Source: Amylostereum areolatum
Taxonomy: Eukaryota > Basidiomycota > Agaricomycetes > Russulales > Stereaceae
Assembly (NCBI GenBank): GCA_012932865.1
Contig: SAXG01000001.1
Coordinates: 2,717,693 to 2,781,692 of the forward strand
Direction: 5' to 3'
Length of the DNA stretch: 64,000 bases
Part shown: in pieces, positions 20,644 to 46,415 of the stretch
Layout: each line of letters starts with the position of its first letter
How positions within the stretch are numbered: position 1 is the stretch's first letter
Notes under the pieces: model-generated
What the model saw: only the letters and a program-made list of their open reading frames with translations
Database searches by the model: none
What the model was told of the DNA's origin: nothing
Translations under genes and position numbers: made by a program

Positions 20644-21720
<1,077 letters not shown>

Positions 21721-21786
21721 CACACCTTATGGTAGGGTACCTTAGATAGATATGTAGGACCGCAGGTGTACATATTTCGTCAGTAT

Positions 21787-21808
21787 CGGCTCGACCGCTT
21801 GCGGCCGC
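21787..21808 (+). repeat. Left subterminal inverted repeat of the KDZ element
   Basis: Begins CGGCTCGACCGCTTG and ends with a NotI-like GCGGCCGC. It is the perfect reverse complement of 39689-39710. Its near-equal distance from each terminus (66 and 64 bp) suggests a binding site used in transposition. Confidence 0.85.
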
Positions 21809-21943
21809 TGCCCCCCCCCTCCAGGTACAACCCCACGTAATCTCTATTCTCTCCCGACACTCATTCGGGAGCGGCCAAATGATCGGGTAGGGAGAACTAC
21901 CGAAGCCGATCATCCCTTCCCCTCGTTAGGATTCCCTTTCCCG

Positions 21944-22102
21944 TCGGTACGCACTCCCCCATCGGTACGCACTCCCCCGTCGGTACGCACTCCCCCGTCG
22001 GTACGCACTCCCCTGTCGGTACGCACTCCCCTGTCGGTACGTGTTCCCCTGTCGGTACGTGTTCCCCCGTCGGTACGCTTTTGTACCCTCGCCACTCGGT
22101 AC
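21944..22102 (+). repeat. 18-bp tandem array of TCGGTAC units
   Basis: TCGGTAC occurs at 21944, 21962, 21980, 21998, 22016, 22034, 22052 and 22070, exactly 18 bp apart, with the spacer GCACTCCCCYGT changing to GTGTTCCCCYGT in later units. A ninth copy is at 22096. The array lies in the left subterminal part of the KDZ element, just beyond the 3' end of the first element gene. It may be a cluster of binding sites. Confidence 0.9.
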
Positions 22103-22162
22103 ACTTTCACTTTTGTTACACTCGCCACACCGCAATAGAAACTACTCTGTCTTCCAAAGTAG

Positions 22163-23123
22163 CTATGAAACAATGGAGCTCGTACCGTCCTCCATCTCCA
22201 CATCCCCGTCCCCACCCAGTTTACCACCTGAGTTACCTGCCGTCACCTTGACTTCAGCCATCGCACTCGCCACGACTTTCCACCTTAGTGTGACCTTTGC
22301 CAAACGCTCGGCATAGTCCTTCCGTTGCTCAACAGCCCAGTCTCGCTGCTCTCCCACCTCCTCGGCAACCTCTATGATGGCGGTGCGAAGAGCCTCAGCC
22401 CTTTGAAGCCATTCTTCAAGCCCATCCAACCCAGGGTCCTGAACAATGTCAGCTACGAGTCGCCCGAGGAAAAGCAAATGTACCGAAAGCATCGCGTTCT
22501 CCAGGAACTCGATGAAACCATCCACTGCATCGTACGTCTTCCCGGCCTCCGCAAAAAACCACCACCCAGGCAGAACAACCATCGCCTCCGGGGGCTCTCC
22601 CAGCTCAAGGGCAAGGCGAGGGATGTCGCTCCATAAGCCCGGTTCCCCCCCAAAAGACAGGTATTGATGAGCATTCCGTACAATTTGATTTGGTTGAAGG
22701 GCCATTCCTCGCATGCGTGCTACCCCGATCACTGTCATGATCAGGTTCTAAGACAGGTAAGCCAACATTCCAGAAACACATAGAACGACCCACCAGCTCA
22801 TGTTGTACACAAACTTTGACGTATGGATCATGATCCCATGCACTTTTGAAGTCACCACTCTCGGGATCCTCGTCGGTACACCGTCGGGACGAGGTTTCGG
22901 ATAACCACCGAGCTGCTTGCCCTATCCGAGAACCTAGGTATTCAACCATATCCGCTGCACACATTTCGATCAAGGAGGATTGGGACACAGAAGGCGGAAT
23001 AGGGGATGCCATGGAGGGAGGAAAGCAGAGGGGCGTGATGTGGCAGATGTGACAGAAATGCTCTGGACACAAGACAAATGCCCAGCCCTTCGGGACACCA
23101 GGCAATTCCCGAACACTTCTCAT
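22163..23123 (-). CDS. KDZ-element gene 1, unknown protein
   Basis: ATG at 23123 (MRSVRELPGVPKGWAFVLCP) opens an exon with a small Cys/His cluster (CPEHFCHICHITPLC). A 47-nt intron with GTGGGT donor and CTTAG acceptor joins VQHEL to NLIMTVIGVARMRGMALQPN. The second half is predicted helical, with VVLPGWWFFAEAGKTYDAVD and a long charged helix around EEVGEQRDWAVEQRKDYAER, ending in acidic VEMEDGTSSIVS at 22163. Length is about 300 residues. No known domain was recognised. The Cys cluster could bind zinc. It is transcribed divergently from gene 2, with only about 40 bp between start codons. Confidence 0.6.
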
Positions 23124-23161
23124 AATCGGATTGCAGACCTCTCTCTTGACCACTTGCACTC

Positions 23162-24154
23162 ATGTCAACCGTTGCCACCATCGTTCTCGACCCCTCCTAC
23201 GAAGAATTCATTCATGTTGCCGAGATATATGCTGCCACATCTTGGCTACGCCGTATGCGCCAAGACCTCGCCACGCCTAGGAACATCCCGGATTGTTTTC
23301 GCGAGGGTCTTCGTGCCGAGGCGGTAGGTTATGTCTTTCCCCACTTAAACACAAATCTCTCATGATCTCTCAGAGTGACATAATCAGACTGACCGGCCAG
23401 TTTTTGGTCGAGACGCCCCAGCATTTGAGCCAGAATCCCTGGCTCGTGGATATATACAATCTCTGCAATGCTCCTCCGCCAAACGTAACTTTAGAAGACC
23501 TAGACGTACTTTTACCGAAGGGTCCGTTGACCCGTGCCGAGGTTCAGGGATGCCGAACAACCGTCAACGACTGGTGGACCGAGCATTTTGTCATCCAGAG
23601 TGGCAGAGGCCGGTCCGCCATTCGGGCGGTTGAAATGTGGCTCAAAAATCCAGTGAGTTCTTTCGAATTCAAGCCCATTGCCCATCTTCTAACAAAGGTA
23701 GCCTCTTCGAGCTCGTCAGTACTACAAAGAGATGCAGGAAAGACATGCAAGCGGAACCTCCCAGGAGCCCAGGATCCTGCCAGATGTGGCAGAAGTCTCA
23801 TCGGGTGAGTTTGTCTTCTCCTGCTGGTTCTGTCCTAAACTGTCGGTAGGATTGGGACAAGCCCGTCGCAACATTGAAAGGGTCCTTCGCCAGCATGAAG
23901 ACCTTGTCAACAACTCTCTCGAACGACGAACCGACCTTGTTAACCACCTGAAGGACACCGTGGAGAAGGAGTCGCAAGTTCTCAAAGACATGCATAGAAT
24001 GTGGGTGTTGACAGGAGCAAACCACCTTGCTTGGCAGGGAATTGGCGAGGAGAATCCTGGCGAGGAGAATTCTGGCGAGGAGAATTCTGGCGAGGAGAAT
24101 TCTGGCGAGGGGTCTTTGGCAGGTGATACCATTTCTCCCAAGATGGAGATGTAG
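23162..24154 (+). CDS. KDZ-element gene 2, coiled-coil protein with GEENS repeats
   Basis: ATG at 23162 begins MSTVATIVLDPSYEEFIHVA. Three introns can be placed, the last ending in TCGGTAG. Exons join as AEA-SDIIRLTGQFLVETPQ, then WLKNP-YYKEMQERHASGT, then SSG-LGQARRNIERVLRQHED. The helix continues to about HRMWVLTGANHLAW and looks like a coiled coil. The C-terminus holds four near-perfect GEEN[PS] pentapeptides encoded by a 15-bp tandem repeat (about 24047-24110). Total length is about 260 residues. Function unknown. Its position next to the dioxygenase suggests a role in the element's life cycle, which is inference only. Confidence 0.65.
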
Positions 24155-24333
24155 CGCCGGGTGTGCTGTACCGAACCCTCTTAAGTAGTAGAGTACCACA
24201 ATGTGACGATTGATATCGGCAATCATTACCTCATGTCCGATTGTTATAAGATCTCAATCTTCAAACATCCACTTTCAGACCCCCACCCACCCATTTGATC
24301 TCCAAATTCAATCACCCTCGTTTTTATCTATTC

Positions 24334-25628
24334 ATGGGCTGGAAGCCAGCCGACGAGTGCACGTCACCTATTCCTTCGGACTGGCAGCTGCTCCTTTCTG
24401 ATTCGGCAGCAGAGTACCTCGTCGGCTGCTTTCATGCAGAGCTTGCATCCCGTTCCCATCTCCCTATCCCTGAAGTACCCCATCCCCCGGTCATCAGTCG
24501 GCAGCTTGCGCAAGAGCTTCGGACTATTGCTGTAGACCTTGCCGAAGCCCTCGGGAGAGAAAGTAAGTCCCCAGTCCTCAATGTGCTGCCGAGGTACTCA
24601 TACATCGCCAGTCGTCATCCCTTTTGATGCCGCACAGTACGTTGCCAGCATTGGAGCACAGGACGGAAGAAATCCGCTTGCCGAGGCAGACTTCATCAAA
24701 GCATTCCCTCCCTTGGCAGAGTCCGTCAACTGGGCGTGTGTTGTCACCGACCGAACCGGCAAACTTCTCGCTTGGCTTCTCCCGGGCTTACTCTCTGAGA
24801 AAACCCAGGTATTCCCCCTTCTCATAATCTCCCCACATTGTCTCACATCCTTCAAGGCTCGATTACTAGCATCGGTACATCATATACGCGATGCAATGGA
24901 GTCCCATGCGCCCCAGGTCAGGCCTAGCGACACGGCAAGTCACTGGCGAGACAACGAAGCCTATTACATGCCTGCCGAGCAAGCAAAGACTGTGCCGAGA
25001 GGGTCAGCGAACTTCACCCCCGCATGGCACCATCTTGCACAAAATGTAACACATTTATTCACATCCTTTTCCTTCTAGCTTAATGTCTTGTAGGGCTTCT
25101 CATCCAAAATCCAACCCTCAAAAGATCTTCGCAAGCACTGGACTAGTGTTGCCAGCTGGATGGAAGAAGTTGCCGAGGATGCTGCCCTGCTTTCAGCTAT
25201 CCTGGCTGTTGTCCACCCTCAACTGTACGCGGTGACCAGAGAATGTCTCGTTAGGCTTGGACAACATCCAGAGTTTGCAGACCATTTGCAACATTGGGCA
25301 TTTGTTTTCAATGTAGTTGCAGTCATCGGCAACCGAGCCTCGCCAGCCCACCGAGACCATGCGAGTAGTCGTCCCGAGTGGTATGACTTGGTTCTGTCAC
25401 TCGGCGGCTCTCCGGACACAGTTCTTGAGCTTCACTCGTTCGGTGTCAGATGCTTATGGCCTTCAGGGCTCAGTAGCCCTTTTCTCAGGTTATTTCGTCC
25501 TCCACGGTGTCTCGGCAAGTTTAGAAGAACGTTTGTGTATTGCAGGATACATGAGACAGCCATTACACACAGCTTGCTCTCTCCCCTATCCACAATGGTC
25601 TTATGTCGGAGATTTCTTACATCGATAG
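24334..25628 (+). CDS. TET/JBP-family 2-oxoglutarate dioxygenase (frameshifted)
   Basis: ATG at 24334 starts MGWKPADECTSPIPSDWQLL. Introns at 24563-24611, about 24811-24859 and about 25046-25093 give a continuous N-terminal region with NWACVVTDRTGKLLAWLLPG. The catalytic core contains NRASPAHRDHASSRPEWYDL, with the HxD iron ligands (HRD near 25350), then LVLSLGGSPDTVLELHSFGV, then in a shifted frame AYGLQGSVALFSGYFVLHGV with the distal histidine, and EERLCIAGYMRQ with the arginine expected to bind 2-oxoglutarate. This is the TET/JBP fold of enzymes that oxidise 5-methylcytosine or thymine in DNA. One extra base near 25450 breaks the frame between GVR and AYG. It is either a true lesion or a sequencing indel. 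Confidence 0.8.
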
Positions 25629-25722
25629 CAGATAGTATTGTGCCTTGGCCTGAAGTCTCTATATACCTTACCTTCCTAATTTCAGTTATTCCTTTCCCTT
25701 TCCCCCCTTCTTCTGTCAAACC

Positions 25723-28700
25723 ATGCGTCGTAATCGAAGTCGCCGCGAGTCCCCCTCCTCTAGCGAATATAGCGAGAGAGAGTCGTACAATTCAAGAGGT
25801 GCTCGTATCAAAACCAGGGTTAAGTCCAAGAAAGCCGAGAAGTTGATACCCTGGGACTGACAAGCCAAAAGCAAAGCGTGGACGATCCCAGAAGGCCTCT
25901 CCACAGCCGCAGGCAGGCCCGTCCCAGGCAGGCCCATCCCAGGCAGGACCGTCCGCCCCAGGCCCTACCCACCTGCCTCCCGTTGACTCGTATGGGATTC
26001 CACAGGAGTTTCTCGTTGACAACTACTGGGATGATGAGGAGGACTTTGGCGTTAGGGAGACGAGCACACAAGGAAAGGTGCGTAGCTTGGGCTGTATGCC
26101 TTAAGATTCATCTGACAGGGATGCTCGGCAGACATCAGTCATGTATATGCGAGAGTGGCTGGACGTAGAGGCCTCGTACCTTCACAAGATTGTTGAAAGA
26201 GATGCCCCTCCCCCGGACAAGCTCTGCCGACGGTGCAAAAATCACGAGGCAACTTGGCGATGCAGCAACTGCTTTCGCGGTCGGCACATGTGCTCTTTCT
26301 GCCTTCGGGAAACCCATGTGTACACGCCCTTCCACCGAGTACAAAGGTGGAATGGTAAGTTCTATGCTCCCGCCTGGCTCCGTGATGCTGGAGTATGCAT
26401 CTGTGTGGGCCACGACGGAGACGAATGTCCTCTGAATCCAATTCCCGAGCTCTCCCGACAGGTTGAAGTTCAAATCCAGGGCTCTTGGGATACCTCGGCC
26501 ACATCTTCGGCAGCATCCTCGTCAGCAGCGTTTAAGGATTTGTCAATGTGCGCCCTTGTTCCCGAAGAGGAGGGCCTCACTGTTGACGATGACGATGACC
26601 CTGATGACCCTCGCGTACCAGTCGAGCCCCCCGATTACGCCAAGGATCCTGCCGATGATACCGAGGATGCTGCCGAAGTCGAGGCTGAGGCGGATGCAAA
26701 GGAGGGAGATACCACCGATGGTCCCATACCGAACAATGAAGCGCCAATGACAGACCTTTTTCAAAATAGAGTCATGGTGCTTGTCGACCCTTCAGGCTGC
26801 ATCATATTGGTGTGCGCTTCTGTGTTTGCGGACCTCCTCGGGAGCCAGAGGATCGCCAACTTCTTTCCTGCGGACTGTACCCGGCAAGTCAAGATGTGCC
26901 GAAGACCGCATTCACCTTTCGGTGTCTCGACGATGCACAGTTAGACAACCTCGAGTGCAAGACGGTTACAAATGCATACATGCGAAAGATTCGACGAGTG
27001 ACGAAGCCTGAAGCCCCCAACACAACAAAGGTATTTTCTTTCTCTCCACGTCTCGGTAGCAGATTCTGACTCTCGGTAGACTCGGCTGATCGAGCTATTG
27101 AGGATCCGTCGGCAGTGGCTTGACCTCGGGAATCTGCAACAGTTTGGGATTTGCACACACTCTAATCTTCAAGCGACCTTCCAATGGCGAGCTGGCCTGG
27201 TTTTGTGTTACCTGTCCTCAAGTAGGAGTGAACTTGTTCCCGGGGTGGGAGAAGGAGCCAGATTCGTAAGTTCCTCACCCACCTCCTGGAAGAGGAGCTC
27301 ACATTGTCCTCTAGGTGGAAATTCATACGCTCGGTAGCCATGGATGCGAACATGAGTGCACAGCATGTCAAGTCCCGTGTGCCGGGCAATGATATCGACT
27401 GGACGGCTGGCAATGGCTTCATGGTGTCGCCAGGGCCGTACAAGGAGCACCTCGCTGTGGCAGTGGAAGATGACCCGGTAAGCTTTTAGTCGCTACGTGG
27501 AAACCTACTTCATTGTCGGTAGACTTGGGAGAAAGCGGATTGTCATGACCACACGGCGAGCAAGCACAAAGGGAAGTCGGACAAGAAACACCTGGATGTG
27601 ACAGGTCTTGCGGCTGCCGCCTGTGGTCGGCACGGGTGCTTTGTGCCACACTGCGCTTGTGACCTGCAGAAAGGCGAAAAGTATGTGCCTTGTTCTCGTC
27701 ATTTTATCTCTCTCTGATAAAGTTTAGGCAAGCGAACATGGACTACACCCTAACGCATGCCTTGAACCACAAGATGGAGGGAATACTCCGGGAAATCTAC
27801 CTCTATGATGTAGCCTGCCAGCACTACATCAACCTGTCCAAGCGCATCGGCAAGTCACCACATCTCAACCTGCCAAAGTTCGAAGTGTTTCTTCAAGGCG
27901 TCGGCATCTGGCACATATATGCCCACGTCAATGTCTGCCACCCTCGGTTCTATCCTCTATATATCCCAGGCATAGGACTGATTGATGGCGAAATCCTGGA
28001 AACCCCTCTGGGCTTTGCTCAACTTGATTTCTACATGCTGCCGAATGATGTCGCTGGCGAACCGAGCGGAAACTCTCAACGCTCACATGAATGACAGCAA
28101 TTGGAAGAAAATGACCCAGATGAGTAGGTTATATTTCTGTCTTGATATCTAGGCTCACTGTCTCAGTCCCGACCCTCATCCGCAAATGGCGCAAGGCTCA
28201 GAAGGTACTTCGCCAGCGCACGAAGGCCCTCGCCAAGCTTGACGAAACAATTACCAAAGAGGAGATTGCCGACTGGACAGAAGAGATTCGGCAGGCGATG
28301 CAGGAGCGCTTGAAAGACCCCAAGTCCATGGACAAGTTTATGCCGACGAATATAAAATGTATGCTTCCCCCGAGCTCAGGACGTCCATTCAGTTTGCTAA
28401 CATGTCGGCAGACGTATCTCGAAAGGAAGTTGAGATTGAGCTCATCTCTGAGGAGGTTCGCAACAGCGAGAACCCTGGCGATGCGAAATGCATCATTGAG
28501 GGGATTGCCCTCCAAGAAGAGCAGTGAGTCCATCATCAAACTATGTTCGGCAGACATTAATTCTTTGCCAGGCTCCAGCTCCAGGCTTATGTCAGTCAGA
28601 TGCCCGATACTGAGCGAGAGCATTCCAATGTAGCCCTCTGGTGTCATAAGCTGGCGACCAAGGTGCAAAAACATAACGAGATGGCCAGGGAGCGACTTGG

Positions 28701-29624
28701 ACACCCGCCCAACCGTCTTCATACGGTTCGCCTTCGGAAGCTTCATACCGAGGACGAATGGGGCTCGGTATCAGCAACACTTTCTGCCGAGGGTCAGCAG
28801 CCAGAGTACAGAGCCGTTGATATTCCTTCGGCACGAGACAAGACCTGGTGCGACAACCCTGATCACAGAAAGTTTGCTGACATGGAGCTCCGACTTCGGG
28901 AAACGAGTGCCGACCACCACCTGCAGCAAATCCGTCTTGGCTTGGTCGACAAAGCCAACCAGTATCGAGTGGCAATTCGCAAAGTGCAGAATGTTGCCAG
29001 AGGGGTCTCGTCACACACCCGGGGTATGAATGCCGTGCATTCCCTCAACAAGACGGTCCGGCTGCATGCGCAGCAGTATGCATGCTGCCGAGAAGACATG
29101 GAGCGATTGGGTTGGACCTCGGCACAGAAAGAACGTTTCCAGGCAATGAAAAAAGAAGATATGCTCATCTCAACCAGGAGTATCGATCCAAACGATCCCA
29201 TGAGCTGGAAAATGAATCTCGCCTGGTTTTGGACGATGGATATACCTAGCGATTCAGATGAGAGTCAGTACCTTGGCGAATGTTGGTACTTCTTTTTGTC
29301 TCATGGATGCGCTTGACGAATTCTCTAGTCTTCAAGAAAAAGTGGCTGGAGACTAGAATGTCTCTAGACCGAGTGGAGGAGGAGATTATCATCTTGAAGG
29401 CAGAAATGGGTATGACCTACTCCAGCTTCCGATTTCTGGCGAAGGAGTGGGAAGGCCGTCGAGACACAATGCTGTCAGCTCGCCCAAAAGCCCCGGGACA
29501 CATCTGCACTGCCGAGAGGATGATGGCGAATTGGACTGAGTATGCCGAGAGAGCCCGTACCGCATTTGATGGCGAGCTTGGCCCCGGGGTTATTCGGTAC
29601 TGGGATCCTCACGACGTAGATTAA
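25723..29624 (+). pseudogene. KDZ transposase with CxC2-type cysteine cluster (frameshifted)
   Basis: ATG at 25723 starts MRRNRSRRESPSSSEYSERE. A 46-nt intron joins IKTR to PKAKRGRSQKA. The Cys cluster region (about 26200-26450) reads CRRCKNHEATWRCSNCFRGR...CSFCLRETH...HDGDECP. KDZ core segments follow: VRFCVCGPPREPEDRQLLSC, FCVTCPQVGVNLFPGW, RSVAMDANMSAQHVKSRVPG, ARHG-like CGRHGCFVPHC, MEGILREIYLYDVACQHYIN, and GIGLIDGEILETPLGF with HMNDSNWKKM. A long helical C-terminus ends at 29624. The predicted catalytic acids lie in AMDAN, LYDVACQ and DGEILET. Three frame changes near 26795, 27181 and 28035 cannot be explained by introns, so this copy looks inactive unless these are assembly errors. Confidence 0.85.
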
Positions 29625-30289
29625 ATCTCTCGAATGTTTAGCTCGTTCCCATGCCTCGGTACGAGATGAACGTGCTGCCAGGGGGTGAATGTCGTTGAGG
29701 TAGATTTGATTGCAACATCCCTTGCTCTAACACAGCCTGCCTTGGTTCCAGCAGCTCTGAAGACCGAAGAGCTCGAAATTCCAAAGTTGTCTCACATTCA
29801 TTCTGTCGAAGGGCAAGGCGCACAAAGTCACCCTACCCCCAATCGACCTTCGGTACGAGAATTAGGCACCGTATCTACAAACGACTCCTGCCCTTCATTA
29901 CCCCATTCCGCAGATTTGGACATTTGAAAAACCTGCAAGACGCGCAATTAGAGACGTGTTCGGCTCGGCAGGACTTTCTTGGTAGGAATCACAAACATTG
30001 CACCGTTGGAGTTGTTCTCCCCTGAGTTTGAGGCACCAGCGAGACTTGAGCTTCTTGGACTTTGGGGTGGGTGGGGGTGGTCATGATGGTTTGAGATAAG
30101 TTGGTTATCGATGAGTGCACCTGCTCCCTGTATAAGTGATACCGGCTGTACCTACTACCAAGATTTCATGTCTAGACCCCTAGGGACACCTCGTGGTCCC
30201 AACGTGTTATTCTGTTTATATGGAGGCTCTGAATAGACCGGGATCTGTTTTCCTCTTCCGCTCTTCCCAAAAACGCTACCACAGTGTCC
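29625..30289. other. Spacer inside the KDZ element
   Basis: Between the transposase stop and the start of gene 5. It contains several TCGG[TC]A copies and no supported gene. A frame at 29685-29927 is open but has no features. Confidence 0.45.
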
Positions 30290-33200
30290 ATGTCAGGCAC
30301 CCAGAATCCTCCCCCTGGACCTCCCAACGCTGCCGAGACCTCCCTCACTCCCAATGGCCCTCATGGACCTGCCCCACTTCTCACAGTGGCCATGCTCGAC
30401 CTCATGGATAAAAACATCACTGCATACATCGACACCCCAGCTGCCGGCCGACCAACCTGGATCAAGACATTTTTCCCCCGAGTGTGGGAGGTTACTCACC
30501 CGGGATGGGACTGGGATGCCGACGATGAGGATCTGAGTGAAGCGGAGGAAGAATTGCTCGGTAGAACTAAGGATGTGAGTGATGACTGGTCTTTCATTGA
30601 CCTTCGCGTATATTGACAGCTTGGCAGGCAGTCAATCGGTGGTTCTCGCAGCACGGTCGTGTGGCGAAGATCCGAACCTTTCTTCGGTTGACTCGAAGGT
30701 GGACAGTGAGAACGGCTTACGGCGCTCTGTTCAAGCAGCATCTCGACGAGGTCATCAAAGCCATTGACGAGGATGCTATCCCCCCATCGGGAGCGTATCT
30801 CCGACTATATCAAACAGGAATCACTCGGGGCTTAGGACTGCTGCCGGACGGGGAGTATGAAGCCTTGGTTGCGCTGGCAAAGACTTGGAACAGAGTTGGG
30901 CCGCCTCGCAAGGTAAAACAAAGGTTCGCAGTGTTCGTCCCTCGCACCGTACCAAGCAACATATTTACCTGCTCGGTAGGCGACTGCGACGATTTTTCCG
31001 TGATGCATGCCGTGAATTCATCACTTGGTGCGCACGTGAGATCGGTGTATGGGCGTTTGTGCTGTACGGTGTTGATCCCGAGTTGGAGGGGAAAGCAGAC
31101 ATGTGAGCATTAACTTTCTGTGCCCTAGTTTCTAACTCAAGCGCCTGTCCGGTAGCATGGACTTTTCAGTCCAGCTTGGCCTCTCAAAAAAGCCGTTCAA
31201 GAAAATATTCTCTCTGAAACCCCTATTCAAAAAGGTTGACGACTTCATCGAGGACGCGACCAGTGAGCCCCCCTTATGGTCATGGTACCGAGCGAGGCTG
31301 ACCGAGATATCAGACGAACTAGACGGCAAACTCCCCGAGCCCCAGCTGGGTCCGCAAGAGTCCCCCATCCCTATAACACATGACGGAAAGAAAATCACAA
31401 TCCCTGCCGAGGTGGACTTCGCCAAGGTGAAGAAAAACAAAGGGTTGAATCGGTGGTTGAGGCATGCAATCTAGAAGGGCGTCGGTACGTTTTCATCTAT
31501 CTCAGTGTGCAAATTACGCTCTAACCCCCCTCGGTAGCCGTCCTTTGCGATAACGAACATATACAACCCCCATGGAAATTGCTCCGTGATCAGACCTTCA
31601 CCTTCTTCGATGAACAAGACATTCCCTACTGGATCTGCAAGGGGGTGCGTAAGCGGGTCGTCATACAGGACCCCGAGAAGATGTGGATCGCGGAGAAGAC
31701 CGCTCTCTTCTGGCACTTCCATTCTCGGGGTGGTTTTACGATGAAGGTGTACTACGACAGGGACCAAATTTACGAACCTCTCCCCGACCATCAGTGCTTT
31801 TGGCACTCTCAGTTCGTGCCGACACCAAAACAAGTCTCGAAGAAGACCCCTGCCGATAGCGATGAGTGGGAGGATGTCGAAGATGACGAGGAAGTCCATG
31901 ACCCTGGCGATCCCGAGCTTGCGCCTGGCCTTGCCGAGGCTCCCGACCTTCTCCCTCTCGCTAGGATGCCTGTCAACCCAGACTGGCCGGGTGTCCCCCC
32001 CGTATCCGTGCCGGCCACTCCGAATGCATACCTCACTTGGGTGAGAGACACATTGCAGGGTGAAGTGCCCGAGCTTGAGCGTGCTGCCGAAACACTCGCA
32101 TGTCTACCTGTGAGTGTTTTTCTACTAGGGGAAGATGTCAGAATCTAACATGTACTAGCTGTCGAGTGTAGACACGCCCCATGGTGCGCTGGATCCAAAC
32201 ATCCAGGCACCTTTAACTTGGACATGGGTGAAAGCATGGCTACCGCCAATGTATCTGGAAGAGAATGGCGAACATTTACAGAGACTGGAGGAATGGCTGG
32301 ACAAAGATCCGTGGAAGCGTGAGGCTGGCGAGAGACATATCTTCCTTGGCTTTCGCCAGGCTTGGGATGTTATCCTTCTCGGCATGCTGTATGCGCGTTG
32401 CTACCAGGCCAAGGCAGAGCTTATGAACGATCCACCTGGCACGCTGTACCCCCCTCACCCTGTTTGGAAGGGGGCCATTGGCAGCTCAACATTCAACCCT
32501 ACCGAGCGACAAGAAACCTGGCTTAACGCGGTCTTTGGTGCCATGGCAGACGACATTCAGGTGGTGGTGGATTATTACGCCTGGCCCGGCATCTCCATCA
32601 CCGAGCGTTCACCGAGCGAGTCCAGAATCAAGTTCATGCGACGTTTGTGGGATGATCAAAACTACCAAGAACTGATTACCATAATCTGCCGACAGCTAGT
32701 AAGTGTCCAGCGCCTTATGTTCTGCAACCACGTCTAACATCCGGCAGGTTCACAATCCGCACCAGAGAGATTCTCTACCTATGCCGAGGGCGTGGGGATC
32801 ATTCTCATGGCCAAGAAGAGGTTTACCTGACCTGCTGCATAAAGACATGTACAAGCTCCGGCAGTTTCTCAATGACATGGACACTCAACAAGTCGTCCAA
32901 CATAATAAGCCGGTGTCTCGGGAGGTGGCTCTCTCCTTTGCCCTCAAGCTCGGGCTTGCTGCTGCCGACTGCCAACTTGTGAAGGACTACCAAGAGCATC
33001 CCCACACGTTTGTCCCGATTAGCGATCACGCAAAGAAGATCCTCTCGTCTTCGGTGCTATTGCAGACCGACACACTGCAGGACTTGGAGGCGGCAGCAGG
33101 GACGGCGCTTGCCGACCTTCGGCAAATTCTCCCCCCCCTGCCGAAGGACCCGGTACATCGTCGTCGCATTCGAGTCCCGGCGAACATCAATGTCTCTGCA

Positions 33201-33608
33201 CCCACTACAAGCGTGGAGGACGCTGCAGCAGCATTAAATGAGGGTGAGACAACGGGGGACCGAGCTAGAGCCATTGCCTTGGAGCGGCAGGCTCAGGTTG
33301 CCGACAGGGTAAATATCAACCGTGCCGAGAAGGCAAAGAGACGGAAGGGGATGGTTGTTGACCTGGACCTTGGGGAGGAGGGGGACGATGATGAGGAGGA
33401 GCCAGATAATCCTGAAGATGACGATCACATTCCCCAGGTAGGGATGTCTGCATTCTTAGGGGACGAAGAAATCAATAAAAGGAGGCCTCAGGCGGCAGCG
33501 AAAAAGCCAAGGCCAAAACCAAAACCCGTGCCAAAGAAAGTGGCAGTTCCTGCCGAGGGTGTGGAAGGAGAGCCGCAAAAGAAGAAGAGGAAGAGGAAGA
33601 GGACTTAA
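30290..33608 (+). pseudogene. KDZ-element gene 5, large accessory protein with in-frame stop
   Basis: ATG at 30290 starts MSGTQNPPPGPPNAAETSLT. Exons join through GRTKD-AVNRWFSQHGRVAK, GKAD-IMDFSVQLGLSKKPF, VAVLCDNEHIQPPWKLLRDQ, LACLP-LSSVDTPHGALDPN and IICRQL-VHNPHQRDSLPMPR. The whole would be about 900 residues with an acidic middle (DSDEWEDVEDDEEVHDPG) and a lysine-rich tail (QKKKRKRKRT) that resembles a nuclear localisation signal. A TAG codon at about 31472-31474 (HAI-stop-KGVA) interrupts an otherwise open frame; the flanking splice sites agree in phase. One junction near 30905-30995 is not resolved. No known domain. Four introns end in CGG[TC]AG. Confidence 0.6.
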
Positions 33609-33871
33609 GAGACTAAGCCCACTCCATTAAAACTTGTAAAGGCCATTTTTATTTGTGTATATGCACGGGCCTATAAATAATACACCTCGGTAGCACAATG
33701 CTACCGAGTAACACGCGCACGCGCAAGCAAAACCCGAAGTACAAGTATGGAAACCAAACACCCCAACCGGCAGGCGATACAAGACGGGTAGCCAGACACT
33801 ACCGAGAAAAACGGATGAAAGCATACAAGATCCCAACGCCAAAGCGTAACCTACCGAAGCCAACATACCAT

Positions 33872-34688
33872 CTAATTTCCTCCCCGGCCCTTGCCACTCT
33901 TTGGCTTATTCTGCCCGCGTGCAGTGACAGATGCCGACGGCTCTGCAGAGCCAGATGGTCCTGCGACGGGGTCTTCTCCCCTCTTCTGAGCTTGTTGCTG
34001 AGTTAGTGCAGGCTCTGCATTGCTGGGGGTATTTTTCCCCTTGCCCTTGCCTCTCCCCCCCCTCCCTGTGCTGCCTCCCCTCTTTGCCTTCTTGGGAAGC
34101 TCAGGCATGTCCGCCTCGGGGTCTTCTTCAATGATCATGCGCTCCTCAGGACTCAAGGCGGCCCAAGATGCGGGGGATAATCCGCCATGCTTGTCCTCGG
34201 CAGCGTCCTCGCCCACACGCTTGCGCTTTGCAGGCACCCGCGCACCGCCTTCGTCCTCGGTAGACATAGTGAGCGCCGACACGTGAGACGCGACCGAGCG
34301 ATGCTCGGAGCCCTGGCGAGAACCACCTTCGCGGGACGGGCGAATCGAGCCTTCTCGGGATGGACGAAGGGATCCTTCTCGGGACGGGCGAGTTGCCGGT
34401 GCCAAGTTGGGTCCGTCATCGCCATCTGAAAAGCCCTCGGCCTGGGGTCCCCAGGTAGCCTTGCTGAGTGAGGGGGCAGCTGGAGAGGGAGCCGATGGAG
34501 AGGATGAGGAGTCAAAAAACAAGGGTTGCTTGGGTTGCAAGCCAAGGAGGGGGGCGGTGGTCGAGGGACCGGACTGGGGAGGCGTGAAGGCATCGTCCCG
34601 AGGGGAAATCGGCAGGAAATTAGGGTCAAACTCGAAGTCCATAAGGTTGAAGTTGCCCTGGGCAGCGGGTTCGGGAGGAGGCGCGGGG

Positions 34689-34721
<33 letters not shown>

Positions 34722-37531
34722 TGCTGTTGCTGCTGCTGCTGCTGTTGGTGCTGCTGCATGGCCTGCCACATGGGGTCGTCCACCCCAAACGCCCCTACCT
34801 GATTCCCGACCTGATTGGGGATGTTGCCGAGGAAGATCTGGACGAGCTGCTGGGTGATTCCTGTCAAGGATGCAACGACAGTTGCTTGGCGCTGCTGTGC
34901 CGACGTCTCTAACATGTTCCCCTGGCTTGAGATCCGGCCTGTGATAGCTTGGGAGACCTTCTGCCAGTCGTCAGCAGCCGAGAGGAATGACTTCCTCGTT
35001 GAAGTCGCCAGCGCGTCTGTGGCCTGGGTCACGTCTGTGAGCTTCGTCGATGTAGCGGTGTGGAAGTCGATGAGGTCCTGGGAGAGGGAAGTCCGGAACA
35101 CCTTGACCTGGTCGGCAGTGGCAAATCTCTCGGCGGTGCTGCCGAGGGCTGCAAGACTCTCTAGTGCCGTGTCAAGCTGCCTGTCGAGGCTCTCCAAGGC
35201 TTCCTTTGACGTGTCGTCCCGGTCTACCTGCTCGTGGGATTTGTCGACAACGAGGACGTGGAGATTCTTGACGTTTTCGTGGATTGCCTCCACGATCTCG
35301 AAGATTTCCTGAACCTTGCTGCCGTCGGGAGCCTGACCTTGGGATGCTGCCATCTCGGGGGGTACGGACTGGCGCAAGAGAGAAGGGAGGCCGTTTTGCA
35401 ACTCGGCCATGGTCGCTTGTAGCTCGGCAAACTTTGCGTTCGTGCCCTCGACCTGCCGACGAACGTCCCGGACGCCATCTTCCACAATCTTGACGATGCG
35501 AGCCTCGTGTGCCGACAGCAATGGCGATAGCATCTGGGCGAGGGCGGTTGTGTCGAGAACGACTCCTGGTGTGGGAGCGGGGACGGAGGTGCTGGCTCGG
35601 GGGAAGGAGATGGAGGAAACACGGGCGGGGGTCGGTACGTCTGATGCTGGGGGAGGACTTTGCGAGGGGGGGCCGTAGCTGGAGGGGTGCAGCTGGTCCA
35701 CCATGTCGATGTCCTGATCATCTTCATCTTGAACTACTGGTTTCGCTAGAATAATCTATCATTAGCAAGTGACTGGGGAGGATGTGCATGGAATACTAAC
35801 GGTGAGGGGGTCGGGGAAGAAACTCACCGGGACGCGCAGGCTGGACGATAGCACGAGGGGGGTCTGCCTGGTGAGATGACGACGCTGCCGATCTTGCCCC
35901 TTTGGCAGGAGTCCTATCGGGCATCTCAATGGTCGGCACAGGGCGAGGCTTTGGAGGTTTGGAGGCTGCCCGGCTTGGCGGTTTGTCCTTCTTGCTAGCC
36001 TTAGCGGCCGCTTTCTTAGCGGGAGCTTTCTTCGCCTCCTCAGCAGTCGTCTTCTCCTCGGCAGCCTTCTTCGATGTGGTCTTCTCCTCGGCAGCCTTCT
36101 TCGACGCGGTCTTCTTCGCCTTGCTCATTGCCTGGCCCTGGCCTTGCCATTCGGCGACGGTGGGCATCGGTTGCTCGGAAAACTCTGAGGTAATGTTAGT
36201 TGAATTCGTACCGAGCATGCAAAGAGTTCTTACCCGGGTACTGGAGCACCGGCTGAGTCAACCTTGCCGAGAGCGCCTTCAGGCTTTCCTCGGTCAGCCT
36301 GCCAGTCTCGGTGAGCCTGCGGACGAAGGCTCCGCGACGATCCTTGTTCCAATGCCATCCTCGGTGGAGGGCTGTGTACGTTGCGGCACTGTTGTGGCTG
36401 CACTTGATATTGCGCAGGCTGCAGGGGCTGCAAGAACCAGAGACACCCCAGTAGCAGGGGTAGTCGCCTGCTTCACAGTTTGTGCAAGGTTCCTGTAAGT
36501 CGGTAAGTCGACAGAAATGGAGCGGAGGAGATCGGTACGGGACGTACCTCATGTGCCGGGTGGTCTGGGTGCAAACCCCAGCATTCGGGATGCTGCCGAA
36601 TGTTGTTGTAGATGTAGTTTTCGCCCTGCGGGGTATTCCACATCCTGTTTTTGCGCTCGACAAGATCGGCAAGGTGCTCGGCAGACTGGTCGTCGGGAGG
36701 GTTGATGGGTCCGGTGACCTGCGCCCGGTGCCTCTTGCCTTTGGCCTTCCCGGCACCTTTGCCTTTCTCGCCAGCTGCCTCGGCGTCCTCGTCCGCGTCC
36801 TCGTTCGGCAGATCTTGTGCCTGTTGTTGAGTGTTGTCCTCTTCATCGGAATCTTCCACTGTCGCCTTGCTGATGTTGCGCCTAGGCGTGGTTGACCTTT
36901 GGCGGGAAGGGCGAGACGGGGTAGCGGGGGTGCGAGAGACAGACTTGTCCCGAGTGTGGCGACGGCCGCGTGTTGGGGGGTCGGTAGATGGTGAAGTCGC
37001 GGAGGCGGCATCGATGGCCCGCGGGGTACGGGAATGTGAACCCGTTGGCTGGAGTGCCAGATCGGCGGACTCTTCTGCAGTAAACATGAGACGAATGAGA
37101 TAAGATCAGTTGGCGGCGACGTACCAAGCGCTATCCACCACTGATCTGGGCCCGGGTCCGCAATCTCCTCTGGTGGCTGATCGAGGAAAGGGGGGGCGGT
37201 GGCAAATCGGTTCGCCATGACATCTGCCGTGATAGTATCCCCCTCTCCAGGGTTGCAGGTTTGGTCGTAGACGTAGCGAACGAACTTGTGCCAGTTTTGC
37301 GGTTCCGCTGCACGATGCTGTGGATATAATGAGGATCTGAAAACGGGAGACAATCGGCAGACGCACCCATTCCTCCACAAACTTCCCAATCCACTTAAAA
37401 CGAACCTCTGGCGAAGCGTGCTTGAGTGCGAGCCACGCTCGGTACGTTCGGTAGGCCGTTACACGGTTGATGATGAGGGAGCCCCGGTTGGCAAAGGCTT
37501 CCCATGCTCTGCTCGTGGCGGCGGCGGACAT
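33872..37531 (-). CDS. KDZ-element gene 6, Cys-cluster, coiled-coil and poly-Gln protein
   Basis: ATG at 37531 (CTCACCATGTCC) starts MSAAATSRAWEAFANRGSLI. Five introns with matching phases join six exons: EEW-HRAAEPQNWHKFVR, AL-EESADLALQP, AHE-EPCTNCEAG, QYPE-FSEQPMPTVAEW and ARP-AKPVVQDEDDQD. The product has about 1,000 residues. In order it shows a short helical N-terminus, a Ser/Arg/acidic linker, a cluster CX2CX6CX7CX2CX6C (EPCTNCEAGDYPCYWGV and on), Lys/Ala repeats (KKAAEEKTTSKKAAEEKTTA), a predicted coiled coil (about residues 550-750), a poly-Gln tract, and an Arg/Ser-rich end with RPSREGS repeats. No frame lesion was seen. It resembles a chromatin or DNA-binding accessory protein. Function is inferred only. 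Confidence 0.75.
34690..34760 (-). repeat. CAG/CAA repeat coding poly-glutamine
   Basis: About 20 glutamine codons in a row within gene 6, mostly CAG with interspersed CAA (read as CTG and TTG on the + strand). Such tracts vary in length between copies. The + strand reading of the same repeat gives poly-Leu or poly-Cys frames that are artefacts. Confidence 0.9.
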
Positions 37532-37895
37532 GGTGAGGAAAATGATGCGATGGGGGCAGAACAGAGAGGGTTCAAAACTGTAAAGTATAAGGCAGAGACA
37601 TTTGCACTCCGCTCGGCAGATGGGTCCGGTGCGGGCCCGGACTGATAACAATCGGGCGAGCAAACACACTTTTGACAACTTCACCGTACTCGGCAGCCTT
37701 GACAGATTGTTGCCGAACTCAGGCACATGTTGCTTACTTCGACGCGTTGTCGCTTACGGTGCCAGAAAAGGGAATGATTTAGGCTCGGATCGGCATATGT
37801 TATGTCACGTGGCGAAGTCTTGCCTCTGCATCTTCACGCGACTTATTTTCCGTCCACCACCTGCCACGTCGACCACCGAAAGCCTCACCCCAAAC

Positions 37896-39186
37896 ATGCC
37901 CACCTCAACCCCCTTCACCATTCGTCGGCCTCCTGATCATGAAGTTCCTTCACCTGGTGTCCCTCCCCCTCGGTACGTGATTCGGCGCCCACCGCCTGAA
38001 ACCGAAGAACTGGCGAGAGGTATGAACACCTCTCCGGTACCTTCCCCAAACCCTACCCCCGCGCAGTTCACCATCCGGCGACCCGCTCCCTCTCAGCCAT
38101 CCCCTCACCCCGTCCAATACACAATGCAGGGGCCTCACAAACAGGTCGAACCTGAGGGAATGCCAGCTGCCGAGGAGGCCTCGGCACGGCGCATACGTCA
38201 TCCCGCCTTCACAATTCGCCGGCCACCTCAACATGTTCCCCCCTCTTCCCTTTCTACCTCCCCTCCCACGGTGTTTACCTTTTGGCGGCCCCCACCAGAT
38301 GCAAGAGACGAAGATGCTTCTGGGCAGCTAGACCCCGCTTCCTCGGCAGCAGCTGGTATGCCTGGGCCTTCTGTGGGATGCTACGTCATCCGGCGTCCGC
38401 CTGAAACAAATGCCTCGGCAGGATCAAGGCCTGGGGCCGGGGGCTGGACTTTCCCCTCTGCCCCGTCCTCACCGCCCAAGTCTCTTGTGCCGCCCATGTC
38501 CCCCACTCGACCGCGGATTCGCAACCGACAAGCGACCCCGTCCCGGGGGATCCTGACGAGGTCTGACCCCGACCTGTCTCCCGAGCACGCTGCTCTGATG
38601 AAGGCTTCAAAGCCACGCGCGTCCTGGGACGACTCGGTGACAGGGGTCAGCGGTCGGCCGTCCTTCAGGGTGGGTCGGCAGGAGCGTGCCGATGGGCTTG
38701 CAAACGGTGAGTGGACCCTGCGTATTTCACCTGTTGATCTAACAACTCTCAGAATCCTGGCCTATCGCCGCCAAACCCTCCAACGGCACCCTGGACGCGG
38801 CATTGGAGGGATCCAACTTGCCAGGTGAGTTTTTTTTTGATTGTGCTGCCGACGGGTATGGATTTGACCATCCGGCAGAGCACGAATCGTATCAAGAGTG
38901 GCTCAATTTCCTGGATCGCTCTCCCGAGGCTCCAGCCCTACCGGACGATGTCATGGACGCTGCCGGTCCTCAGCTTACCTCGGCGTGGATGAGCATCTAC
39001 CGAGACGCTCGGCGGATTGCTCAGAACCTGAAGACGTACGACCACATGCTGAGTGTCCTCACCCAAGATGAGAATACCCTACATCGTATGAAGGAGGAGC
39101 TGGTGGCTCTGATGCGTGCCCGGTATGTTAGTGGAGTGGAGGATATCAGGGAAGAGGGTCGAGACAGAAAGCGGTCCCGAATGTAG
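37896..39186 (+). CDS. KDZ-element gene 7, IRRPP-repeat protein
   Basis: ATG at 37896 starts MPTSTPFTIRRPPDHEVPSP. Introns at 38707-38752 and 38825-38878 give a continuous frame of about 395 residues ending RKRSRM. The N-terminal half repeats a motif [FY]-x-[IF]-x-RRP-[PA]: FTIRRPPD, YVIRRPPP, FTIRRPAP, FTIRRPPQ, FTFWRPPP and YVIRRPPE, spaced by Pro/Ser linkers. The C-terminal part, after the second intron (acceptor CCGGCAG), is helical with EHESYQEWLNFLDRSPEAPA and a basic end. Nothing in known families was recognised. The repeats look like short linear binding motifs. It lies at the right end of the element, divergent from gene 6. Confidence 0.7.
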
Positions 39187-39286
39187 GATTCCTCGGTACA
39201 GTGTTGTTTTCGCTTGTAGTTTCCTGGGGGAGGTTTTAGCGCGGCGGGAGGACAGACAAAGTCATCTGTTTGGGATGATTGGCTAC

Positions 39287-39360
39287 CCTCGGTAGGTGGA
39301 GCGGTCTGCCGACTGCGAGGAACGAGTGGTTCGGCAGACCACTCCGCCTACCGAGGGTTC
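39287..39360. repeat. Near-perfect hairpin carrying four TCGGYA motifs
   Basis: The left arm begins ACCCTCGGTAGGTGGAGCGG and ends TCTGCCGA; the right arm begins TCGGCAGACC and ends CTACCGAGGGT. The arms are about 28 bp with two mismatches and a loop of about 18 bp. Each arm contains two copies of TCGG[TC]A or its complement. It is placed about 100 bp after the stop codon of gene 7, in the right subterminal part of the KDZ element. Confidence 0.85.
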
Positions 39361-39688
39361 ATCTCGAACGGACGATTTCATATTGCCTGCCGCCGAGTGT
39401 AGGGGTTCATTATTGGTCATAGTATATTTGTTGTACCCTATTCAAATCTTGGTAGCATGTTTGTAACACGGATGTATTGGAAATAAAACATGGGATACAT
39501 GGTACCGACACAGTAATTCTAGCGAGCGGTGGCTAGGGGATGTGTAGCGAGGACATCCTGGCGAATGGTAAATTAGACCGAGGTCCTGGCGAAGCGGATA
39601 CCGGCAGAGGGGGTGCTGGGAGACAACCGAGGGGGCGGCCGCGCCGTTTGGATCGAAACACGCTGGGGGGTGGAAAATCCTCTCATAT

Positions 39689-39710
39689 GCGGCCGCAAGC
39701 GGTCGAGCCG
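39689..39710 (-). repeat. Right subterminal inverted repeat of the KDZ element
   Basis: Perfect reverse complement of 21787-21808 over 22 bp, at 64 bp from the right terminus. Confidence 0.85.
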
Positions 39711-39774
39711 TTACTCACACAGGATGTAAAGCGCGAGTGACCTGTATAGTATGGAGATCACTGCCATATATGGT

Positions 39775-40286
39775 CAGCCGCCTCCGCCCTCCACAAAGCC
39801 CTCCCCGAATCCCGCACATCCGCACTGCTCCACGTCCTCCTCCAAGTCAATACCTCCGGCGAGGACGCCAAGTCCGGTTTACCACCCCCTTCTCCGCCTC
39901 TCCAGTCGTCCGCCGCTGGTGAATCCGAATCGGAGCTCGTCGCCCTCGCGCGCCACATCCTCACCGCTTGTCCGCGTCTCCACCTCCACGGGCTCATGAC
40001 CATCGGCTCGCTCTCCTCCTCGCTCTCCACCACCACCACCCCCGACACAGTGAACTCCGACTTCGCAACCCTCCTCCGCACGCGCGATGCGCTCCAATCG
40101 CACCTGCTAACCCTAGAAACCGATGGCATTCCTGTGGGGAGGGAACGGTGGGGCGACGGCGTGGGAAAGTTGGTCGTGAGTATGGGGATGTCGGCCAATT
40201 TCGAGGCGGCGTTGAGGGCGGGGAGCGATATCGTGCGCGTCGGGACGGGGGTGTTCGGATCGAGACAATTGAAGGGTGAGACGTAG
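39775..40286 (+). pseudogene. PLP-homeostasis protein (YggS/PLPBP type), 3' part
   Basis: The frame resumes as AASALHKALPESRTSALLHV and continues LLQVNTSGEDAKSGL, HLHGLMTIGS, WGDGVGKLVVSMGMSANFEA and GSDIVRVGTGVFGSRQL to the stop at 40286. The segments GLMTIGS, LSMGMS-like VSMGMS and VRVGTGVFG are conserved parts of the PLP barrel in this family. An insertion-like low-complexity piece (PPPSPPLQSSAAGESESE) lies between them. No stop or shift is seen in this part, which suggests that the KDZ insertion is recent. Confidence 0.85.
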
Positions 40287-43800: not shown

Positions 43801-46415
43801 GAGGTGATAGCTTTAAGTGGGTCACTGTCATCAGCAGGAACATATAATCTTGCCAAAGATGAGGTAGAGAGTGGCTCAAACACTGCAAGCACTGACCCCA
43901 TCACAGACTTGAAGGCTTGTTCAACATCAGGGTCTTCCATATCAAAATGCTGCCGCAGAACCTCCAAATATAGTGTATATAACACTCCATCAGGTCCAGT
44001 TTTCACAGATTGGTGGAGAAGACGGTCAAAGCGAACTGGTATAGAGAGCCCCCCTTTGGAAGAATCATTGAGATAGCTACAGGCAACAGCAGCCCACTGG
44101 AACAACCGCTCCGCTTTTCGTGCAAGTAGGCCACAATTTTCATTGCTGAGATACTGCTGGAGCTCGTCTGTGAAGGTAGTGCGCTGGGCATATATGTAAG
44201 CCAAGATGTCCAGGGTTGTTTCATTTGTCAAGTCATCATTGTCCATCCGAAGAAAATGGGCAGGTTTGCCCTCAAAGGCCTGGCTTATATCAGGCTCAGG
44301 TCGGGAAGTGATCAGAATACGAAAGGATGATGGAAGCTCAGACATCCTAGTGGCCAATAGCACCAGCATCTTCCGCCGCGCATTTGCGTCAGCACTCTCA
44401 TCCAAGGCATCAATGACAATGACAGTCGGCCCAATCATACTCAAGCTTTGTGCTGGCCGCAAGATGAGATCGTCAAACTGCCGGATAGGATCCTTCGTGT
44501 GGCGTAGGTCCGTGTCGTTGTAGATGAGGTGGCCTAACGCTCGCTTGAAACACGGTTCGCGGTCGGCCAGATCTCGTGCCATGCTCGAGAACAGATGCTC
44601 GGGACGACGGGACATTTGGTTGGTACGATCGAAGCAGAATGACGAGCCCAGGCGTCCTAATTTCCTGAACCGGTCTGCAATCTCGTGCGCAATCGACGAT
44701 TTGCCTGTACCTGCAGGCCCAAAAACAACGCAGACGCGGCGAGGGTCGTCCAAGTCGTTGATCCAGTGTTCGATCTTCGTCAGAACCGCTTTACGAGTCC
44801 CCGGCAAGCAACCTTTCTCCAGCTCGAATCCAGCGCCGGCGTACGGAATGTCCCTCAAGTTTGAGTTGATTTCTAGATATTGTAGGATGAGCCGAGTCTG
44901 GTACCATGGGGGGAAGACGCAAGGCTCACCAGAATCCTGGATGCCCTTGGCTATATCTTCAACACTATCCAGAACACGGAGGACGACGATTTCGGTCTCG
45001 AGAACCGCGCGCTCCTGAAAGGCCGTTTTGAGCTCGCGGAATTTGGCCTGGTACTTTTCTATTTGCGCGTCCGTCTTGCTCGCGATCGCGTTCCTCGCGG
45101 CCCGTTTCACTGATGAATGCCACCGCCAAACTACGTAAGAAATACGACGGACATTTGCAATGGATCGTCTTACCGAAACTTGCATCCTGCGCATAGTCGC
45201 GAATAAAGTGCGCGCAATCCACCGTCTGCTTGGCGATCACCGCAAGGATTTTCTGCTGAGATTTGTCGATCGTGTCCTTCCAGTTGTTGAGAGGTTCCGC
45301 GTCTTTGACGAAGGAATAGATGTCGCTGATGACTTCCAGCAGGACTCTGATTTTCTCGTCGCGGTTGATCTGATCGCAAAGCGTCTGACCGTATGCATGG
45401 TGACGTCAATAATCGAGTGAATCGAACGAGAAGAAAATGGAACGAACCTTGGGAATGAACGACAGGATACTCCACGCCATCTTCGCGTATGGATGAACCT
45501 GCGAGCAATCCTGTCAAGAGACGTCGCTCCCATTCGAAGTTGCGAGACCGTACCTCCGCAATTCCGTCCGCGAGTTTGACCCATGCGTCGATGTTATCCA
45601 AAACCGGATTCCAGACGTCAGAAAACGCGGCTAAACCTTCGGACACCGCCTTCGCACTCTCGATGACCGAACCAGCCGTTTCAATCAACCGGGGCGTGGA
45701 CTGCATCGCGTCCACAGCTATGATGGCTTCTCGCAACTCGCCCCCCGTTCCCGACTGTCCAGCACTTAGGACGCCTTGTGCGGTTTCCGTGACAGGAGGA
45801 GGGACGGTAGATGCCTTAGCCTCGCTTTCCTCCTGGATGTTGGGAGCGCTTCCTGGAGATATCGTTTGGGGTTGGGGATCGGCAGTATCCGACTGCCTCT
45901 TGATGATTAGACTGAGAGAAGCCATTCCGAATGTGTGGGTGATGTGCTCTAGGGAGCCTCGAATCAAACCTATAGTCAAAATGAACGAGCATGACGGTCG
46001 GCGTACCTTCAGCATGTGACAAGGCATGGACAGATGCGACGTCAAACTGCCCGACTAGCTTGTCTTTGCACGTCCCTTTAGCGTAAACCTCGACTTTGAA
46101 CGTGGATGACGCATAGACGCGGCTGAGTCGAATTTAGGATGGAGATCTAGAAACTATGGGATGCAACTCACAAGCCATCAAGCGTCTCATTCCACTTAGG
46201 GTCTCTCCCCCGCCCCGATGACTTGGTGACCTTCTTGGTATCGTCCACGGTTACCACAATGAAGAATTTTCTTTTCCGTCTAAGGCTTCCAACGCGAGGA
46301 AAGCCACGCCCTCCGACCACTACACACGGACGACATTGAGTCCTGGAAACGAAAAGGAGTCGGCGCAAGGGAGCGCACCTGTCACGGTCAATGGAATGCC
46401 CTCGGTCGTCGCCAT
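40839..46415 (-). CDS. C2-NACHT-WD40 receptor-like protein (NWD/HET-E type)
   Basis: ATG at 46415 starts [12 protein letters not shown]. Short exons build a C2-like domain ([49 protein letters not shown]) and a helical linker. The long exon 43317-45194 carries the NACHT NTPase: [16 protein letters not shown] (Walker A), [20 protein letters not shown] (Walker B) and [15 protein letters not shown]. After an intron come 14 WD40 repeats of 43 residues (41240-43035). An intron with GTAAGC donor then joins LYL to [15 protein letters not shown], and the protein ends with [16 protein letters not shown] at 40839. Length is about 1,700 residues. Fungal NWD proteins act as NLR-like receptors in heterokaryon incompatibility or defence. 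The last 3.5 kb are strikingly CpG-poor. Confidence 0.88.
41240..43035 (-). repeat. Array of 14 WD40 repeats, 129-bp unit
   Basis: Fourteen units read [43 protein letters not shown]. Units 2 to 13 are nearly identical. Differences concentrate at a few positions: two residues after HT, one before SVAFS, one after SGS, one after the following D, and R/H/C before LW. The first and last units are more diverged. High identity points to ongoing exchange between repeats. Confidence 0.92.

Follow-up and report, generated by a model that had tools for sequence, protein, structure and literature searches.

A TET-carrying KDZ transposon of Amylostereum areolatum whose seven-gene set recurs in a diverged sister family

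The window analysed here, a stretch of 64,000 nucleotides of the Amylostereum areolatum genome (C1:2717693-2781692), contains an element of 18,055 bp (window positions 21721-39775, 5'-CACACC...GGTC-3') that carries seven genes, among them a KDZ transposase and a TET/JBP dioxygenase. We read it, with a probability of roughly 0.75, as a TET-carrying KDZ DNA transposon near Kyakuja with a seven-gene module that has been kept. The new part is that the gene set recurs in a diverged sister family, where the block formed by the TET and transposase genes has the opposite orientation. The original prediction, made from the letters of the window, had overlooked this recurrence, which we consider the more interesting point. 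Relatives of genes 1, 2, 5, 6 and 7 and matches to the KDZ and Tet_JBP models were sought in the element's own genome, a 57.1-Mb assembly of 182 contigs.

Results

Ends, target-site duplication and empty alleles

The features that delimit the element in the window are the following.

21721-39775, plus strand: the element; its ends are common to other copies and its termini are similar in the sister element
21714-21720: left 7-bp target-site duplication, AGCCGCC, read directly; single copy in the empty allele
39776-39782: right 7-bp target-site duplication, AGCCGCC, read directly; single copy in the empty allele
21787-21808, plus strand: left arm of a 22-bp subterminal inverted repeat, from sequence comparison
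39689-39710, minus strand: right arm of the same repeat, from sequence comparison
21940-22078: tandem repeat of 18 bp, about 7.7 units, read in the window copy and compared among copies

We searched the assembly with the first 180 bp and the last 275 bp of the element. The 5' query gave eight matches, every one starting at its base 1, while the 3' query gave seven, corresponding to six distinct 3' ends and one internal piece. At all six 3' ends a C follows ..ATATATGGT, so the element ends at 39775 and the duplication is of 7 bp; of the two edges first proposed, 21721 holds and 39774 falls one base short. The expectation that other copies would end at the same bases (eight starts, six ends) and be flanked by short duplications was borne out, with 7-bp duplications in the other four complete copies (GTTCGAT on contig C14, GTCCGGG on C45, CATTGCA on C161 and GAGGTCT on C128). 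A duplication of 8 bp was rejected, as it would need a mutation in two of the five copies and the empty alleles give 7 bp. The dinucleotide CA opens all eight starts of the window family as well as the sister element, and TC closes all six 3' ends and the sister.

The very ends of the element share only ~15 bp of imperfect similarity, and the 22-bp inverted repeat lies subterminally. It is perfect, as first described, and is found in four of the five complete copies (15 bp in C128); its distances from the ends, originally given as 66 and 64 bp, are 66 and 65 bp after the correction. In a control of 197 random pairs of 200-bp window stretches the longest such repeat was of 12 bp. Similarity between copies running past the ends, or subterminal repeats private to the window, had been named beforehand as counter-evidence; the flanks outside the ends are unlike between copies, with the exception of C69 and C128, which have the left flank in common, and the subterminal repeat is shared with other copies. 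The 18-bp array varies in length between copies, by 36 bp in C45 and C161, and might, as a guess, be a protein-binding array. For two remoter families, the 5' stretches that we examined gave no decidable terminus.

The target gene is preserved uninterrupted on contig C115, where the flanks join ungapped at a single AGCCGCC and the frame is open across the site. Window positions 44000-44800 also match C115, at a spacing of 3.69 kb compared with 3.70 kb in the window; therefore C115 is the allele on a syntenic haplotig and not a paralogue. The gene resembles the YggS family of pyridoxal phosphate (PLP) proteins (TIGR00044 of NCBIfam, E 4.2e-19, 69.1 bits, under the curated cut-off of 106.25). 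The predicted insertion into a PLP-homeostasis gene whose halves join in frame, the AGCCGCC at both edges and the existence of an empty PLP gene were all upheld. The insertion in C45 has an empty allele as well (C154:138082-138674), in which 593 of the 593 joined bases are identical. Since both insertions have empty counterparts in the assembly, we infer that elements of the window family moved recently.

Two further observations concern this locus. A second YggS-type PLP gene copy lies at window positions 55360-55880, without the element (89% identity over a query of 521 bp). Just upstream of the PLP gene, positions 20644-21147 hold another insertion that is missing from the C115 allele; it spans 504 bp and resembles a short hAT-type element, its terminal inverted repeats being AGGACCCCTGAAATTCCCTATA and its apparent 8-bp duplication GACGCGAC.

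The seven genes

Gene models were built on copies with open frames, and that of gene 5 was later corrected for one missed intron.

22163-23012, minus strand: gene 1, 267 amino acids, two exons; no Pfam family reaches the cut-off; relatives lie next to TET-KDZ loci in other parts of the genome
23162-24154, plus strand: gene 2, four exons, 282 amino acids in the window; no Pfam family reaches the cut-off
24334-25628, plus strand: gene 3, TET/JBP dioxygenase, 398 amino acids in C14; PF12851, E 1.3e-11; one frameshift in the window
25723-29624, plus strand: gene 4, KDZ transposase with CxC2 cluster, 1154 amino acids in C14; four frameshifts in the window
30290-33608, plus strand: gene 5, 1001 codons over seven exons in the window, where one in-frame stop breaks it; no Pfam family
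33872-37531, minus strand: gene 6, 1130 amino acids, six exons, open; Zn2Cys6-like cluster CX2CX6CX7CX2CX6C from residue 298
37896-39186, plus strand: gene 7, 414 amino acids, two exons, open; its C-terminal 134 amino acids align with the sister

The seven models, together with the KDZ and Tet_JBP domains, agree with the KDZ transposon of seven genes originally predicted. The gene 4 protein of C14 matches the KDZ domain PF18758 (E 6.6e-44, 150.6 bits, cut-off 26.6) and the CxC2 cluster PF18803 (E 1.2e-19). Gene 3 has a catalytic domain homologous to that of CcTet from Coprinopsis cinerea (PDB 7vpn, 7w5p and 8jkk), with E-values of 2.8e-18 and 2.6e-18. Aligned with CcTet, it keeps the HxD motif, the second His and the Asp equivalent to D337, and differs by a Ser at the position of G331 and by one extra loop residue. 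The residues of AG-type TET/JBP proteins (metal ligands, Asp at 337, Gly or Ser at 331; positions from section 3.4 of PMC12730594) are present in C14 and in the sister, gene 3 of the window itself being frameshifted.

Genes 1, 2, 5, 6 and 7 gave no Pfam family above cut-off. The six cysteines of gene 6 are spaced as in Zn(II)2Cys6 clusters and all six are kept in the sister, and the protein has no Pfam match up to an E-value of 1. Matches to solved structures were taken as chance for gene 5 (designed Pizza proteins, best E 0.008; REV1, E 0.059), gene 1 (best E 0.059) and gene 6 (E 0.012).

In the window the frames of genes 1, 2, 6 and 7 are open, whereas gene 3 has one frameshift, gene 4 has four and gene 5 has one stop. 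The window element had been proposed as a reference copy for the superfamily, a role that the broken TET, transposase and gene 5 frames do not allow. In C14 genes 1-5 and 7 are open, with gene 6 interrupted and carrying a stop, and in C45 genes 1, 5, 6 and 7 are open, with a stop in gene 4. Apparent frame differences of the uncorrected gene 5 model fall inside the missed intron. It is conceivable, though on balance unlikely, that assembly errors broke the frames of a window copy that is in fact intact. The five length differences are single-base, are clustered in 2.5 kb and occur in no other covering copy (two copies for gene 3, four for gene 4); moreover contig C69, whose left flank is that of C128, shows ten short length differences from the window within 2.4 kb in which C128 has none, a pattern that resembles poorly polished sequence. 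However, the stop in gene 5 is a substitution and not a length difference, and we saw no further single-base difference private to the window in the rest of the element.

The gene set in the sister element

The sister element (C128:646405-671861, 25,457 bp) starts with CACACCTTAT, ends with GGGTC and has ATACCCC duplicated on both sides. Its termini are similar to those of the window family and it has relatives of all seven genes, the transposase gene holding a 6.9-kb insertion of the long terminal repeat (LTR) type. The order is gene 1 (-), gene 2 (+), KDZ (-), TET (-), gene 5 (+), gene 6 (-), gene 7 (+). The window family carries TET (+) and KDZ (+) in the middle, as if this two-gene block had been inverted once relative to the sister.

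The codons that could be aligned with the sister were 216 of 267 for gene 1, 219 of 287 for gene 2, 378 of 398 for gene 3, 1028 of 1154 for gene 4, 892 of 1016 for gene 5, 754 of 1136 for gene 6 and 132 of 414 for gene 7. Over these codons amino-acid identity is 0.34-0.70 and, in all seven genes, synonymous differences (pS, 0.75-0.82) are saturated and exceed the nonsynonymous ones (pN, 0.19-0.48, biased down because alignment by protein similarity favours conserved stretches). The TET and transposase catalytic motifs are kept in the sister. Among the five copies of the window family, the nonsynonymous/synonymous ratio is below neutral for gene 3 (0.19, p 2.3e-4, effectively three copies), gene 4 (0.44, p 3.4e-4), gene 5 (0.45, p 1e-4) and gene 6 (0.44, p 4e-6); these ratios are pulled towards 1 because dead copies are included and nonsense changes are scored as nonsynonymous. 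Both gene 5 comparisons were computed on the uncorrected model (1016 codons, against 1001 in the window model). As the five uncharacterised genes are kept by so distant a relative, genes 1, 2, 5, 6 and 7 are probably working parts of the element and not passengers.

Complete copies and nested insertions

We read through five complete copies, namely those of the window (18.05 kb), C45 (15.8 kb), C14 (25.6 kb), C161 (47.1 kb) and C128 (42.8 kb), and left out C94, C171 and a 3' copy at C1:2645045. C14 holds one nested insertion, C161 three large ones and C128 several, besides losses, while C45 is short of 2.3 kb, a loss that takes in genes 2 and 3 almost entirely. Alone among the five, the window copy is free of nested insertions and large deletions. 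Ten insertions were examined, nine in the family and one in the sister; seven have direct terminal repeats of 336-542 bp that are 92-100% identical, and three (305, 483 and 1641 bp) have none. The nested insertions sit at different places in each copy.

A span of 15.8 to 47.1 kb between identical ends could also be that of a giant, cargo-bearing Starship-like element, with the window copy as its reduced form. We find this scarcely credible and, for the copies read, rejected it on the LTR-like terminal repeats, for most of the extra length consists of insertions that carry them, placed differently from copy to copy, and the transposase is of the KDZ type. Judged by these repeats, the copies of 42-47 kb look like the same element filled mainly by nested LTR-retrotransposon-like insertions.

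The 1641-bp insertion, at C128:73327-74967 within the C128 copy, has termini CATCAGCAAATT..AAATTGCTGATG, similar to the CATCA..TGATG ends of PlavakaB given in PMC12730594.

TET-KDZ loci across the genome

The assembly has 27 Tet_JBP matches, four of which belong to the window family. Within 15 kb of the other 23, our criterion for neighbours, KDZ matches lie at 18 loci, gene 5 relatives at 10, gene 1 relatives at 10 and gene 2 relatives at four. Several of these loci are near-identical copies and the independent families are therefore fewer, perhaps three or four. Wherever gene 5 and TET occur together outside the window family (10 of 10 loci), gene 5 lies 1.9-3.5 kb upstream of TET and is divergent from it. 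The window family differs in having the TET-transposase block inverted; the divergent arrangement being common to the other loci, this suggests that the gene order of the window family is derived.

These neighbourhoods bear on whether genes 1, 2, 5, 6 and 7 could be captured host genes, a cargo without a role in transposition that both families received from one ancestor. The lack of any Pfam family above cut-off in the five genes would fit such an origin, as would the confinement of gene 6 and gene 7 relatives to two families in this genome. We nevertheless hold it to be improbable, given that gene 5 keeps its divergent position beside TET in all ten loci and that all seven genes persist in the sister, where synonymous sites are saturated and amino-acid sites are constrained over the aligned codons.

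The KDZ domain itself has at least 155 exon-level matches in the assembly compared with 27 for Tet_JBP, and thus the majority of KDZ matches lack a TET match of their own.

Discussion

The element has the PF18758 domain and the CxC cluster characteristic of the KDZ superfamily, and a 7-bp duplication in five copies of the window family and in the sister, its length fixed by two empty alleles. This length is at odds with Zisupton, which has 8-bp duplications. Going by published descriptions, the element, a KDZ transposon with a TET gene, comes nearest to Kyakuja. The passages of Kojima (2025; PMC12730594) that deal with these elements describe TET-carrying Kyakuja (KDZ) transposons of Agaricomycetes with 7-bp duplications, and the window element has in common with them the KDZ transposase, an AG-type TET/JBP protein, the duplication length, the 5' CA and, apparently, the lack of a long terminal inverted repeat; it differs in its short, imperfect terminal similarity and its 22-bp subterminal inverted repeat. 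The full gene set with exact ends had been called unusual. As regards TET-carrying KDZ elements with exact ends this no longer stands, since such elements are already in print in the same article. There, TET enzymes on fungal transposons are explained as anti-silencing tools, and companion genes are reported from lineages other than Kyakuja, PHISTA having a third protein and IS3EU an alpha-kinase; the passages concerned name no further genes for Kyakuja. Our coverage of the literature was partial and we do not claim that the seven-gene set is absent from print.

The biochemical roles that we propose for the seven genes are all drawn from their sequences. The gene 4 transposase would excise the element and insert it elsewhere with a 7-bp duplication; insertion of this kind is seen in the empty alleles, and a cut-and-paste mode would be expected from the class of transposase. 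It would recognise the terminal CACACC and GGTC motifs together with the GC-rich subterminal inverted repeats. Gene 3 would oxidise methylated bases on the element and so oppose silencing, as its homology to CcTet and its kept catalytic residues suggest. Gene 6, on account of its cysteine cluster, may bind element DNA, for instance at the subterminal repeats, and genes 1, 2, 5 and 7 would be required by the element. We guess that gene 6 or the transposase has its sites in the 22-bp inverted repeats and the 18-bp array.

A similar division of roles is found in the En/Spm (CACTA) elements of plants, where a transposase and a DNA-binding protein (TnpD and TnpA) act on subterminal repeats and on methylation, much as we suggest for genes 4, 6 and 3. 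CACTA elements have an unrelated transposase, short exact termini and 3-bp duplications, and the plant En/Spm elements are not known to carry a TET gene.

Several observations weigh against a Kyakuja-like element with a kept module. The 3' terminus is TC here and TG in two Laccaria families of Kyakuja in the passages cited above; its termini not being 5'-CA..TG-3', we call the element Kyakuja-like and do not file it as Kyakuja. Each of the five copies read has at least one of the seven frames that is not open. C45, without nearly all of genes 2 and 3, is nonetheless inserted at a site whose empty allele is identical, and TET may therefore not be needed in cis; unless the loss from C45 came after insertion, it would seem that TET and gene 2 are dispensable or can work in trans. 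The within-family ratios of genes 1, 2 and 7 (0.51, 0.59 and 0.78) do not differ significantly from neutrality (p 0.09, 0.21 and 0.30). Relatives of genes 6 and 7 were found, in this genome, in the window family and the sister only, and the complete set is thus seen in two families. Among the 14 gene 5 loci that do not belong to the window family, four lack a TET match within 15 kb. Lastly, an AlphaFold model of one gene 5 exon was uninformative (predicted local distance difference test score, pLDDT, of 44).

With the Kyakuja-like reading as a base, we put forward a bolder proposal, tentatively and at less than even odds. The seven genes would be one obligate machine, made of the transposase, its dedicated partners, chiefly genes 5 and 6, and a demethylation arm of its own. 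KDZ families would have inherited it as a unit for longer than synonymous sites record, and an inversion of the TET-transposase block would have rearranged it once, in the window family.

The rest of the gene content of TET-carrying elements has been little treated so far in the literature that we covered. With an exact boundary, two empty alleles and a distant sister that has the same seven genes, five uncharacterised genes become candidate parts of an apparatus for transposition and counter-silencing, and gene 5, which in other families stands next to TET and divergent from it, becomes a concrete candidate for a partner of TET.

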